Part shown: in pieces, positions 34,923 through 39,901 of the stretch
Layout: each line of letters begins with the position of its first letter
How positions within the stretch are numbered: position 1 is the stretch's first letter
Assembly: GCF_036997485.1 (NCBI RefSeq)
Contig: NZ_JAWLPU010000001.1
Coordinates: 868,001-932,000, forward strand
DNA from: Brachyspira pilosicoli
GTDB taxonomy: Bacteria; Spirochaetota; Brachyspiria; Brachyspirales; Brachyspiraceae
DNA length: 64,000 nt
Reading direction: 5' to 3'
Notes under the pieces: generated by a model
What the model was told of the DNA's origin: nothing
Seen by the model: only the letters and a program-made list of their open reading frames with translations
Databases searched by the model: none
Position numbers and translations under genes: made by a program

Positions 34923-36557
34923 TTACTTTTTTACTTCATTAGCCATTTTCTTTTCATAAAATTTTGGTGCTAATATTGCCATTATACACATTATTACAAA
35001 TCCTGTTAATAAAGCCAAGAAAGGATTTAAAGTAATACCGCCAACTATAACACCTATAAATGAAGCAATAGCTACCAAACTTGCATAAGGAAGCTGTGTG
35101 CTAACATGCTCAAGTAAAGGACAGTTGCTTCCAGTAGAAGAAAGTATTGTAGTGTCAGATATAGGAGAGCAATGGTCTCCAAATACAGCACCAGACACCA
35201 AAGAACCTACACTAATAAGAAGTACATTCAAAAGCTGTTCTCCTGTATAACCATTAGCATTAGCAAGACCTGTAGCAATAGGTATTACTATAGGGATAAG
35301 TATAGCAAAAGTACCCCAGCTTGTTCCGGTAGAGAAAGCTATAACACAGCCAAGCAAATAACCAATAGCAGGAAGTATCCAAAGAGGGAAACCGCCGCCT
35401 TTAACAACTTCTGATAGGAAAGAAGCTAAACCTAAACCTCCATCTTCTGGCGATGATTTTATAACATTACCAATAGTCCAAGCCAAAGCCAACACCACCA
35501 AAGCAGGCACCATAGATTTTATACCTTCCATTATAGCATTTCCAGCAGAACGAACATTTAAAAGTTTTCTAGCAACATAATAAATATACATTATCATAAG
35601 CGAAATAACAGCTCCATAAAATAAAGCCTTAGAAGCATCTGTTTGTATAAAAGCATTTGTAACAGTAGTGCTATTGAAAGCTTGTGATAAAGTTTCTATA
35701 CCGTCAGAACCAATTAACCCCATATACGTAGTAATTGGAAACATTGCTATACAAGCTAATATTAATACTACTATCGCTATAACCATATCATACCATTTAG
35801 CACTGTCTCCCGAAATACTCTCTAAATTACCAGGACAAGCACCGTATAAATCTTCATTAAATAGTTTTCCATTAGCAGCATCATCTTCACTTCTTTTCAT
35901 AGGACCAAAATCTTTAAAAAATAAAGAAATTAATACTACAAAAGCCAAAGCTAAAAGCGGATAAACCGAATATGGTATCATCTTTATAAAGAAGATAAAC
36001 TCACTCATATTCAAAGATTCAAACCCCTCAGAATCTCTAATATAGCTCATCACAGTTACAACCCAAGTAGATATAGGTGCAAGTATACAAACAGGAGCAG
36101 CAGTAGAATCTAATATATAAGCAAGTTTAGCCCTAGAAATCTTTTTTTCGTCGAAAGCAGGACGCATTACAGTACCCACAGAAAGACTGTTAAAATAATC
36201 GTCTATAAATATAATAAGTCCAAAAAACCAAGTAAATATTAATACACTCTTTTTAGTTTTAAGGTATTTACTAGCCCATAAACCAAAAGCCTTAGTAGCA
36301 CCTGTTTTTGAAAGCATGCTGACAAACGCACCAAGCAAAGCACAAAATAAAAGTATTCTCACATTCCAAGAATCCCCAGTCATAGCAGCAACTTTATCTG
36401 TAAATATAGTAATAGCAGTAAATATGTTGCCATGTGCAAGTATTAAAGTACCAGAAAGTATACCAACCGTTAAAGAGATTATTACCTCTTTTGTAAGAAG
36501 GGCAAGTATTATAGCCAAAAGAGGCGGTATAATACCAAATAAACCGTAATGTTCCAT
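34923..36557 (-). CDS. nhaC: NhaC-family antiporter
   Basis: This 544-residue integral membrane protein has roughly 12 membrane segments and NhaC-family motifs, including FIDDYFNSLSVGTVMRP near residue 115 and SGAVFGDHCSPISDTTILSS near 450. Classical NhaC exchanges Na+ for H+, but relatives carry malate/lactate or amino acids (methionine, tyrosine, lysine), so the substrate is open. The gene is monocistronic: a promoter and ~180-nt leader with a short ORF and an internal terminator precede it, and a terminator follows. The leader suggests control by translation of the leader peptide, which would fit an amino-acid substrate better than sodium. Confidence 0.88.
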   Translation of the reverse strand: MEHYGLFGIIPPLLAIILALLTKEVIISLTVGILSGTLILAHGNIFTAITIFTDKVAAMTGDSWNVRILLFCALLGAFVSMLSKTGATKAFGLWASKYLKTKKSVLIFTWFFGLIIFIDDYFNSLSVGTVMRPAFDEKKISRAKLAYILDSTAAPVCILAPISTWVVTVMSYIRDSEGFESLNMSEFIFFIKMIPYSVYPLLALAFVVLISLFFKDFGPMKRSEDDAANGKLFNEDLYGACPGNLESISGDSAKWYDMVIAIVVLILACIAMFPITTYMGLIGSDGIETLSQAFNSTTVTNAFIQTDASKALFYGAVISLMIMYIYYVARKLLNVRSAGNAIMEGIKSMVPALVVLALAWTIGNVIKSSPEDGGLGLASFLSEVVKGGGFPLWILPAIGYLLGCVIAFSTGTSWGTFAILIPIVIPIATGLANANGYTGEQLLNVLLISVGSLVSGAVFGDHCSPISDTTILSSTGSNCPLLEHVSTQLPYASLVAIASFIGVIVGGITLNPFLALLTGFVIMCIMAILAPKFYEKKMANEVKK

Positions 36558-36596
36558 TTTTAAGCAGCTCCTATTTTTTATGTATTATATTCAAAT

Positions 36597-36627
36597 AAAA
36601 AAGCCCCCTATATTTAAGGGAGCTTTT
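36597..36627 (-). terminator. Intrinsic terminator inside the nhaC leader (attenuator)
   Basis: On the minus strand AAAAGCTCCC pairs with GGGGGCTTTT (one U-G), followed by T-rich sequence, 40 bp before the nhaC start and after the nhaC promoter. The same CTCCC arm can pair instead with GGGAG at the end of the leader ORF, making an alternative antiterminator. Confidence 0.85.
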
Positions 36628-36660
36628 AAATTGCTAAACTACAAATAATGAATAAATAAT

Positions 36661-36711
36661 TTAACACTCCCAAACGATAAGAGGTTTATTATGTTTCTTA
36701 AATTTATTCAT
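36661..36711 (-). CDS. Putative nhaC leader peptide (16 residues)
   Basis: An ATG at 36711 with AGGA 5 nt upstream opens a 16-codon frame, MNKFKKHNKPLIVWEC, ending at TAA 36661-36663. It lies about 25 nt after the predicted transcription start and before the attenuator. Its last codons (TGG GAG TGT TAA) form the 5' arm of the antiterminator: GGGAG with CTCCC and TTAAATT with AATTTAA. The ORF start region (AATAATGAATAAATTTAA) is nearly complementary to the sequence just after the stop. This is the layout of amino-acid attenuation. Lys is the commonest codon (4 of 16), but Lys is common in this genome, so the signal is undetermined. Confidence 0.6.
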   Translation of the reverse strand: MNKFKKHNKPLIVWEC

Positions 36712-36741
36712 TATTTTCCTACTTTCTTTTTATAGTAATTG

Positions 36742-36770
36742 ATTCTACTACAAAATATTAACTTTGTCAA
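36742..36770 (-). promoter_or_regulatory. Promoter of the nhaC leader
   Basis: On the minus strand TTGACA (36765-36770) and TAGAAT (36742-36747) are separated by 17 bp. Initiation near 36735 gives a leader of about 180 nt that explains most of the 36558-36884 gap. Confidence 0.8.
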
Positions 36771-36884: not shown

Positions 36885-38171
36885 ATGAATATTGAGTTTT
36901 TACTTAGTGCTAAATTTAATAGGGCTCTTCCTACAAAAGACAGACTATTTAAATCAATAGTATCATCTCTAAACGAAGTAAATATTAACCCTCTTGTCAT
37001 GCTTTCAGAATATTCTATCTTAGATGAAGAGAAATCAAGTACATTAATATACTCTTTTCATCCATCTGCTGACCCTGTGTATTTTGAATATAAAGAAGGT
37101 ACATTATATGTAACTATTAACAGCGGAATTTTTGGTGCTGGGTATCATAGATTTATTATTTCTGTATTAGGCAGAATTTCGACAAGATTAGATATTGTAT
37201 TTGAAGAAGATAAAACATATAAAGACCATAGCGGATATTTTAAAGAAAAAAAATTTGATAAATTAAAAAATTTTTTTGTTTTAGCATTAAATGAATATTC
37301 AGAGAGTTTGCTTGCTAATGAAGAGTTTAAAGACTTTATGATATCTATGCCTTATGATTACCCTATGATAGAAAAAGAATATTATGCACTTTCTCCTTTG
37401 GGATATTGGGGAAAATCTTGGTTTAATAATTTAGTTAATGCTCCTTTAGAAGATAAATATAATTTTGCAAGAGAGTTTTTTATTTGGAATGATGAAGAGA
37501 TTAATGCTGACTTTTGGTTTAAGAGTTTAAATAGTATTATATGGCTTTATTTCCCTTTTAGAGAGATTATAGATGACAAAGAGAGAGATGTATATAAAAA
37601 AATAATTTACTGTTTTCAAGAGGCATACAAAAAAGATAAAACACTGCCATATCCTTGGAAGATACTTTCTGATATAGCATACTATCTTGACGATGATAAT
37701 TTAGCTAAATTTATAGAAGCCAATAAACAAAATAATATTCAAATGGTTAATACTGATATTGGATTTAGAAAAGAATATGCAAGATACTCTATAGCAGGCG
37801 GATTTAATATTTCTCTTCCTATGAGCTTTAATGTTCATAGAGATGATAAGACTTTGGTAGAATTCAAAAATATACATACATACATTGCTATACAGGTATA
37901 TTCTTTTGCAAACGAAGAGACTGATGCTATAATGGAATATGTTATAAAACAAATGGACGTTGCAAAAGAAGAAAAAGGCGACCTTACAGATATAAAAATA
38001 AAAGGTATAAAATCTGCTGTATACAAAAAATCTATAGACAATGATGATTATGTATTTACTGTAGTAGCAGTTTCAAAAAAGCTGGCACTTCTTGCATGGT
38101 TTACATATAACGGCAAAGAGAATGAAGAATTATGCATAGAGGCAATAAAATCTATAAGTATAGATAATTAA
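36885..38171 (+). CDS. Hypothetical protein, 428 residues
   Basis: I do not recognise a family. The protein is cytoplasmic-looking, without signal peptide or membrane segments, and rich in aromatic and charged residues. The N-terminal half has mixed alpha/beta character (FGAGYHRFIISVLGRI near residue 85) and several Trp/Tyr-rich stretches (SPLGYWGKSWFNNL near 168). The C-terminal ~110 residues, from about 315, look like a separate alpha/beta domain ending in WFTYNGKENEELCIEAI. It is divergent from nhaC and convergent with the arylsulfotransferase gene, so no operon context informs its role. Confidence 0.65.
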   Translation: MNIEFLLSAKFNRALPTKDRLFKSIVSSLNEVNINPLVMLSEYSILDEEKSSTLIYSFHPSADPVYFEYKEGTLYVTINSGIFGAGYHRFIISVLGRISTRLDIVFEEDKTYKDHSGYFKEKKFDKLKNFFVLALNEYSESLLANEEFKDFMISMPYDYPMIEKEYYALSPLGYWGKSWFNNLVNAPLEDKYNFAREFFIWNDEEINADFWFKSLNSIIWLYFPFREIIDDKERDVYKKIIYCFQEAYKKDKTLPYPWKILSDIAYYLDDDNLAKFIEANKQNNIQMVNTDIGFRKEYARYSIAGGFNISLPMSFNVHRDDKTLVEFKNIHTYIAIQVYSFANEETDAIMEYVIKQMDVAKEEKGDLTDIKIKGIKSAVYKKSIDNDDYVFTVVAVSKKLALLAWFTYNGKENEELCIEAIKSISIDN

Positions 38172-38245: not shown

Positions 38246-39775
38246 TCAATTCTTTATGTTAGCGTCTTCAAAGTACTCTCTTCCATCTTCGTAATATAAA
38301 GGCAATTTGTCTGCTCTGTAATATAACTCCGACTTTGGCATATCAAACTTAGCTTTAAATAAAATTTCTTTGGTTTGTTTATCTACTTCTAATACAGTTC
38401 TTATAGTACCATAAGTTAAAAGCAAATTATTTCCTTTAATGTCAGCATCTGAAGTAATTCTCGAATAAAGCGAAGCATCTCTAAACTCATCTGTTTTGAT
38501 TGCAGTATAAGAACCATGCTCTCCTGTAATATTATATTCTACATATCTTGAGCCTTTAGAGTTTCTGTTTGCATCTCCCTGATTATCAAGCATGCCTAAG
38601 TTTCCATTTTCTAAAAGTATTAATGCATGCTGATTTTTTGGTCCGTCTGTAAGTGCATCTCCTTTTACTCTGTATGCATCCAATGAAGGCAAATCTCCTA
38701 AATTATCTTTATAAGGAATCTGACCATAAGCGTTTCCTGTTCTTGTATTTAAAGTTCCATCTGCAAACCACCATATAAGTTTCCAGTCGCTGTAGTCAAT
38801 TGCAAATACTCCTAAATTCCTTGAAGAGATATAAAGTATATCAGTGTCTTTATCATAAACAAGCGAATTAGCATGAAACCAGTCTATAGATTTCTGCTTG
38901 CCGTTTTCATCTGTAAATATATTATTTTCATCAAATACTATCCTATTTAATATTCTTATTTCATTTTTATCATTATTAGGAAGCACTATATCTCTTATAA
39001 TAGAAGCAAAAGCCATTTTCCTTACTATATTTCCAGAAAAGTCAATCTCTGTAATCTCATCATCTCCGCCCCATTTACTTGCAGATAAATAAATATAATT
39101 ATCATCTTTTTTTATTGTGTCATGATGAGAATTGCTCGGATATTTTACAAGCTCCTTTCCAAGCATATTATAAATTTTTCCTTCATACATAGGATATATT
39201 AAAAACTTATTGCCCTCTATAGCGATTTTTGAAGCGGTAACTCCTTTAATAAAATATCTCACATAACCATTTTTTGATATACCTATAGTAGCAGTAGGGT
39301 ACCAGCCATTAAAATACTGAATAAAATATAACTCAGGATTATTGCCGTCGTCGTTTGTAAGTTTATTAACTTCTACAGTATATTTTGAATCAATGTACAC
39401 ATCATCATGATAAATCTTTTTTATATAATGATTTTCTATGATTTCTCTTCCTGCATCATTTATAATAATTGTATTTGTAGCTTCTGGGAAAAGACCATGT
39501 ATTTCAAACTCTTTGCCGTAATTAGCAGGATAGGTGTGAATTATATCAGGTTCATTGTATAGCCCTTTGACAGTTACAGTTATTGGGTAATTGTTTGTAT
39601 TGCTTATAACATAAGAAGCAGATAATGGAGCTATATCATAAGGGTTTAATATTATAGTGCCTAATGGTGTGAGTTTATTAGGGTCAATAGTATTTTCTTC
39701 CAACTCCTTTTCATTTGCACTACAGTTTACTATAAATAAAAAAGTAAATAAAAAGGTTAATAGAATGTTTTTCAT
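38246..39775 (-). CDS. Arylsulfotransferase (ASST) family lipoprotein
   Basis: This 509-residue protein resembles bacterial aryl-sulfate sulfotransferases, which move sulfate between phenolic compounds without PAPS. The N-terminal Ig-like domain (about 35-110) is followed by beta-propeller repeats, including WFHANSLVYDKDTDILYISSRN and the DYSDWKLIWWF blade typical of the family. The signal ends IVNC, so Cys18 is probably lipidated. I use the ATG at 39775 with AGG 8 nt upstream rather than the GTG at 39784. Donor and acceptor are unknown; gut phenolic sulfates would be a plausible substrate. No DsbA/DsbB-like partner is adjacent. Confidence 0.85.
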   Translation of the reverse strand: MKNILLTFLFTFLFIVNCSANEKELEENTIDPNKLTPLGTIILNPYDIAPLSASYVISNTNNYPITVTVKGLYNEPDIIHTYPANYGKEFEIHGLFPEATNTIIINDAGREIIENHYIKKIYHDDVYIDSKYTVEVNKLTNDDGNNPELYFIQYFNGWYPTATIGISKNGYVRYFIKGVTASKIAIEGNKFLIYPMYEGKIYNMLGKELVKYPSNSHHDTIKKDDNYIYLSASKWGGDDEITEIDFSGNIVRKMAFASIIRDIVLPNNDKNEIRILNRIVFDENNIFTDENGKQKSIDWFHANSLVYDKDTDILYISSRNLGVFAIDYSDWKLIWWFADGTLNTRTGNAYGQIPYKDNLGDLPSLDAYRVKGDALTDGPKNQHALILLENGNLGMLDNQGDANRNSKGSRYVEYNITGEHGSYTAIKTDEFRDASLYSRITSDADIKGNNLLLTYGTIRTVLEVDKQTKEILFKAKFDMPKSELYYRADKLPLYYEDGREYFEDANIKN

Positions 39776-39901
39776 AATCAGCACCTAAATATAATATATA
39801 TACTAAAAAATTTTTTATTTTCTAATAACTTAAATTTTAAATATTTGCAGGGCTTTGCCCCCTGCGAAGCGTGCCCGTAGGGTAGCACCCCACTTCTTTT
39901 G

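Follow-up and report, generated by a model that had tools for sequence, protein, structure and literature searches.

A probable lysine-responsive leader-peptide attenuator upstream of a LysW-like transporter gene in Brachyspira

The trp, his, thr, leu, ilv and pheA attenuators of enterobacteria are built alike, with a promoter, a short ORF carrying codons of the regulated amino acid, an antiterminator that overlaps the end of this ORF and is mutually exclusive with a terminator, and a third, pre-emptive pairing. For lysine genes, the known modes of control are riboswitches, T-boxes and DNA-binding repressors. Riboswitch-linked genes of the NhaC superfamily have been named lysW (COG1757; PMC5584792; PMC545781), and NhaC-family tyrosine transporters are regulated by T-boxes (PMC2494555).

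The locus studied here lies in a stretch of 64,000 nucleotides of Brachyspira pilosicoli DNA (the window; contig NZ_JAWLPU010000001.1, positions 868,001 to 932,000), where the minus strand carries, in this order, a consensus promoter, a 16-codon ORF, an intrinsic terminator and an NhaC-superfamily transporter gene. It shares with the enterobacterial attenuators the promoter and codon-bearing ORF, the antiterminator overlapping the ORF end and, in the clade of the window, a predicted pre-emptive pairing. It differs from them in its lysine codons, in its target, a transporter where theirs is a biosynthetic operon, in its spirochaete host, in the restriction of the pre-emptive pairing to certain clades and in the pairing of an ORF segment with the terminator 3' arm in several clades. 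With the lysine riboswitch (L-box, RF00168) at lysW it shares the transporter superfamily and the expected output, lysine turning the importer off, but it has no aptamer and would sense tRNA charging through translation instead of free lysine. The T-box-regulated tyrosine transporters resemble it as NhaC-family amino acid transporters under tRNA-charging control, which is proposed here, whereas in Brachyspira a leader peptide would take the place of the T-box. Our preferred reading, with a probability of about 0.7, is ribosome-mediated transcription attenuation in the gut spirochaete genus Brachyspira, with charged tRNA-Lys as the signal and a LysW-like lysine importer as the target. Its features are given below in window coordinates, W-n being the codon n places 5' of the Trp codon.

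36742-36770, minus strand: promoter TTGACA-17-TAGAAT, the top-scoring of 21 promoter-like sites of this region (11/12 matches)
36770-36765 and 36747-36742, minus strand: -35 box TTGACA and -10 box TAGAAT, with a spacer of 17 nt
36717-36720, minus strand: candidate ribosome-binding site (RBS) AGGA of the leader ORF, read from the sequence
36661-36711, minus strand: leader ORF of 16 codons, MNKFKKHNKPLIVWEC and stop, with an orthologous ORF at 23/24 other same-genus loci
36694-36699, minus strand: Lys-Lys codons AAG AAA (W-9, W-8), the proposed regulatory codons
36685-36687, minus strand: Lys codon AAA (W-5)
36667-36671, minus strand: antiterminator 5' arm GGGAG, spelled by the Trp-Glu codons and present in every leader (as GGAG in L105)
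36656-36665, minus strand: inner antiterminator arm GUUAAAUUAU, covering the Cys codon, the stop and the bases just after it, pairing in the fold with 36642-36633
36633-36642, minus strand: inner antiterminator arm GUAGUUUAGC, from the fold
36618-36622, minus strand: CUCCC, both antiterminator 3' arm and terminator 5' arm, two mutually exclusive uses (terminator call and fold)
36597-36627, minus strand: intrinsic terminator including its U tract; all leaders have one
36702-36716, minus strand: AAATAATGAATAAAT, the anti-antiterminator arm at the start of the ORF, complementary to 36657-36643 over all 15 bp
36643-36657, minus strand: anti-antiterminator arm after the stop, ATTTATTCATTATTT, perfect 15-bp complement of 36716-36702
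36568-36572, minus strand: RBS AGGAG of the transporter gene, read from the sequence
34923-36557, minus strand: NhaC-superfamily transporter (PF03553, Pfam match), apparently LysW-like, the putative regulated gene

The order of promoter, 16-codon ORF, terminator and transporter had been read in the same way in the preliminary description, and the sequence shows these parts, how far they are conserved, and that their pairings exclude one another. The terminator hairpin (36627-36599) has an 11-bp stem with a U tract behind it, is the longer of two overlapping calls where 0.7 were expected in shuffled sequence, and has a z of about -2.6 in the window by the shuffle test. The neighbouring gene at 36885-38171 on the plus strand is divergent from the transporter and points away, so the terminator is part of the transporter's 5' leader and does not close an upstream gene. 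This neighbour is an ORF of 428 aa with no Pfam or NCBIfam match, and beyond it on the minus strand (38246-39784) lies a probable arylsulfotransferase gene (ASST, PF05935, E = 3.6e-30). Just 3' of the -10 box there is also a near-palindrome, TTACTATWAAAAGTAA (36738-36723, minus strand), seen in most Brachyspira clades and retained even in L088, a genome without the attenuator; it could possibly be an operator or a 5' hairpin.

The GGGAG at the end of the ORF can pair with CUCCC of the terminator in every leader (GGAG with CUCC in L105), as had been proposed, and the fold of the window agrees. The inner helix proposed along with it, TTAAATT with AATTTAA, was replaced in the window fold by GUUAAAUUAU with GUAGUUUAGC, an inner hairpin with a z of about -3.4, and in many clades the helix extends as GUURAAU:AUUUAGC (10 sequences with clear arm alignment). 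Pairs were counted on this 10-sequence subset, since the arms misalign in the full MAFFT alignment; because of this misalignment RNAalifold on that alignment recovered the terminator alone. In the 10 relatives 97.5% of the cells of the antiterminator helix were paired, against 26.7-62.5% when the partner was slid by 1-3 columns. Among the 12 antiterminator pairs one changes on both sides (G-C to A-U), three on one side only and seven are invariant, so that covariation in this subset is weak though consistent and does not exceed the shuffle control; strand-swapping tests between species gave weak support (permutation p 0.047, 0.013 and 0.030). The antiterminator is predicted at about -13.6 kcal/mol and the terminator at about -15 kcal/mol, and when the window RNA was folded thermodynamically with Lys W-5 occupied by a ribosome, the terminator was still favoured. 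The antiterminator would therefore have to win kinetically, by forming first, as the antiterminator of the classical trp attenuator is generally held to do.

The pairing of the ORF start with the region after the stop proved stronger in the window than first described, being a perfect 15-bp complement (shuffle p = 0.007 on the tested stretch), but it is not kept across the genus. Shuffle p-values mark it as strong in the clade of the window (up to 0.007) and in L105 (0.033); other genomes of the genus show it at borderline strength or not at all. A fourth pairing, absent from the preliminary description, joins the ORF segment from about W-5 to W-2 with the terminator 3' arm (in L002, AAAAGCCUUCU with AGGGGGCUUUU). 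In most clades, that of the window excepted, the minimum-energy fold predicted for the untranslated leader combines it with GGGAG:CUCCC. Its shuffle p-values run from 0.007 to 0.74, and it is probably real in some clades only.

We infer from these parts that the leader is translated and that stalling, termination and readthrough follow the lysine supply. When lysine is plentiful the leading ribosome would reach the stop codon and cover GGGAG, leaving CUCCC free, so that the terminator would form and transcription would end before the transporter gene. When lysine is scarce the ribosome would stall on the Lys codons 8-9 codons 5' of Trp with its leading edge still 5' of GGGAG, which would pair with CUCCC once this is transcribed; no terminator would then form and the importer would be made. 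A ribosome covers roughly 12-14 nt ahead of its A site. The first base of GGGAG lies 28 nt (W-9) and 25 nt (W-8) after the first base of those codons, beyond this footprint, so a ribosome waiting there would leave GGGAG free. As far as the sequence goes, the locus has the layout, the mutually exclusive antiterminator and the conserved codons placed to free its arm that are expected of an attenuator, and lysine would be the amino acid to which the regulated gene answers.

The codons were compared by aligning the 19 distinct leader ORFs on the Trp codon. Positions W-9 and W-8 are Lys in 18/19, with AAA:AAG at 13:5 and 7:11 respectively, while the codons around them vary, W-10 taking seven residues and W-7 five; the one departure is L090, where four codons are deleted and Lys-Lys is retained at W-6/W-5. 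Lys is also found at W-6 in 16/19 leaders and at W-5 in 13/19. The Lys counts of single leaders are only mildly unusual (P 0.035-0.20) in an AT-rich genome where Lys makes up 8.7% of residues, and the evidence from the codons is thus the pattern of synonymous change across species and not the number of Lys codons in one leader. An attenuator could also sense translation in general, or another amino acid, with its A-rich codons kept by pairing with the terminator U tract. The segment W-5 to W-2 can indeed pair with the terminator 3' arm (AAAGCYUUCU with AGGGGGCUUUU) in most species, which would place part of the A-rich stretch under RNA constraint. Yet W-9 and W-8 lie mostly outside this pairing and exchange AAA for AAG without non-synonymous change, and homologues of the transporter have lysine riboswitches upstream, so we hold this alternative to be improbable. 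The conserved Lys codons and the riboswitches upstream of 19 homologues, taken together, indicate that the regulatory signal is very probably lysine, whereas the preliminary description had settled on no single amino acid.

An orthologue of the transporter was present in 24/25 same-genus genomes searched besides the source genome, and at 23/24 of these loci, with 75-99% transporter identity, a leader ORF is followed by a terminator, in a single copy per genome. The preliminary description had held that loss of the element in close relatives would speak against it; the ORF, terminator and antiterminator are instead kept across the genus, a conservation which leader-peptide attenuation fits best. 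The promoter pattern TTGACAAA...TAWAAT is retained in most orthologues, the RBS of the leader ORF is a weaker GGA or has no clear site in other clades, and the ORF of L102 has no ATG at the usual place, so that TTG or a rarer start would be needed. A core motif, TGGGAGTRYTRAATT, occurred in 22/26 genomes with 0 matches for the reversed control pattern. Six extra matches were inspected, of which five were copies within one long coding gene and one was isolated; no further copy of the element was found among them, and by this motif the attenuator is specific to the transporter gene. A looser scan of the genome for Lys codons plus GGGAG was uninformative, as its reversed control gave equally many matches, and inspection by eye of the sequences upstream of lysA and dapA in the source genome revealed no similar leader. 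At L088 (genome G021) the promoter stands directly 5' of the gene and the leader ORF and terminator are missing, which makes this genome a natural attenuator-free control. A constitutive, unregulated partial terminator in the 5' UTR, with the ORF there by chance, would be in keeping with this one leaderless genome, but conservation across the genus covers the ORF, its placement with respect to GGGAG and the two alternative structures, and we give this explanation little chance.

Outside Brachyspira, the orthologues of a sister genus (L107, G028:C17, and L108, G026:C65) are preceded by a different ORF of 40-44 codons with a promoter-like site before it. The two ORFs are unlike in their N-terminal parts and end in a common NKIK(R/P)NK; they may represent a second, unrelated-looking Lys-rich leader. 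In other spirochaetes without a leader (L003, L004, L006 and L009) the region before the orthologue holds a palindrome resembling TTGTTATNNNNATAACAA, which suggests control by a DNA-binding regulator.

At the end of the leader peptide Trp is invariant and Glu-Cys-stop nearly invariant in the 19 distinct leaders. This constancy would be compatible with a TnaC-like nascent-peptide arrest, where the peptide together with a small molecule would hold the ribosome at the stop codon. The UGG GAG codons, though, spell the antiterminator arm GGGAG; where UAU (Tyr) stands in place of UGU (Cys), in L102 and L104, the partner arm has U instead of C, which restores the pair; and the leader of L105 ends CWS-stop while GGAG is retained in a different codon register. 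The compensated change and the register shift point to a constraint at the RNA level, and Trp-Glu-Cys would be explained by the RNA arm that its codons spell, with no need for a reason at the peptide level. A ribosome held at the stop codon would moreover cover GGGAG and favour termination. As the C-terminal residues track the RNA arm, such arrest is unlikely, with only a very small chance of being the explanation.

The transporter matches PF03553 (E = 1.2e-44), and its assignment to the NhaC superfamily stands. The NhaC Na+/H+ antiporter model TIGR00931 scores 34.7 bits against a curated cut-off of 370, so the gene, called nhaC in the preliminary description, was rejected as an orthologue of that antiporter. 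A search for solved structures of the transporter gave none. In an Rfam scan of 60 homologous loci, a lysine riboswitch lay directly upstream on the same strand at 19 (79.9-104.8 bits), and no other amino acid riboswitch or T-box was found at the gene among the 60. In the tree all 19 riboswitch-linked homologues fall into one well-supported clade of 42 members, mostly Firmicutes. Next to it, set off by long branches, is a clade made up of the spirochaete proteins, at about 40% identity to the riboswitch-carrying members; none of nine spirochaete-clade members scanned had a riboswitch. The family membership and the position next to the riboswitch-carrying LysW proteins suggest that the transporter is LysW-like, and its TIGR00931 score speaks against an NhaC antiporter. 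Compared with LysW itself, the spirochaete proteins stand in a separate clade, and we infer lysine transport by them from these relatives, lysine being a good and probable assignment of substrate. The best NCBIfam match of the protein is the Tet(35) tetracycline-efflux model NF000013 (180.9 bits) and several resistance genes are under leader-peptide attenuation, but a drug-inducible attenuator of an efflux pump is a very improbable reading for a gene that scores far below the curated cut-off of 750, has homologues with lysine riboswitches and is near-universal in the genus.

Rfam gave no match on the window, hence neither a riboswitch nor a T-box, and no RF00168 lysine riboswitch was found in the source genome, a place which the attenuator could fill. 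Lysine auxotrophy was considered as a reason for the transporter switch and rejected, as lysA and dapA are present in the source genome. That a spirochaete genus uses a lysine-specific leader-peptide attenuator at a lysW-like gene to do the work of the lysine riboswitch, and that in most clades the ORF strands sequester both terminator arms so that the untranslated RNA would read through, is a tentative picture to which we give somewhat less than an even chance.

The open literature searched yielded no lysine leader-peptide attenuator, no attenuation in Brachyspira or other spirochaetes and no NhaC gene with a leader peptide, in line with the preliminary description, which knew of no such element for nhaC in spirochaetes. 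The logic of attenuation is known, the lysine specificity and the phylum are apparently new, and the target is a transporter. If the attenuator proposed here is true, the repertoire of attenuation would gain an amino acid, lysine, and a phylum, the spirochaetes. It would also point to a likely substrate of a transporter which nearly all Brachyspira have and which family models would label a sodium/proton antiporter or a drug pump.
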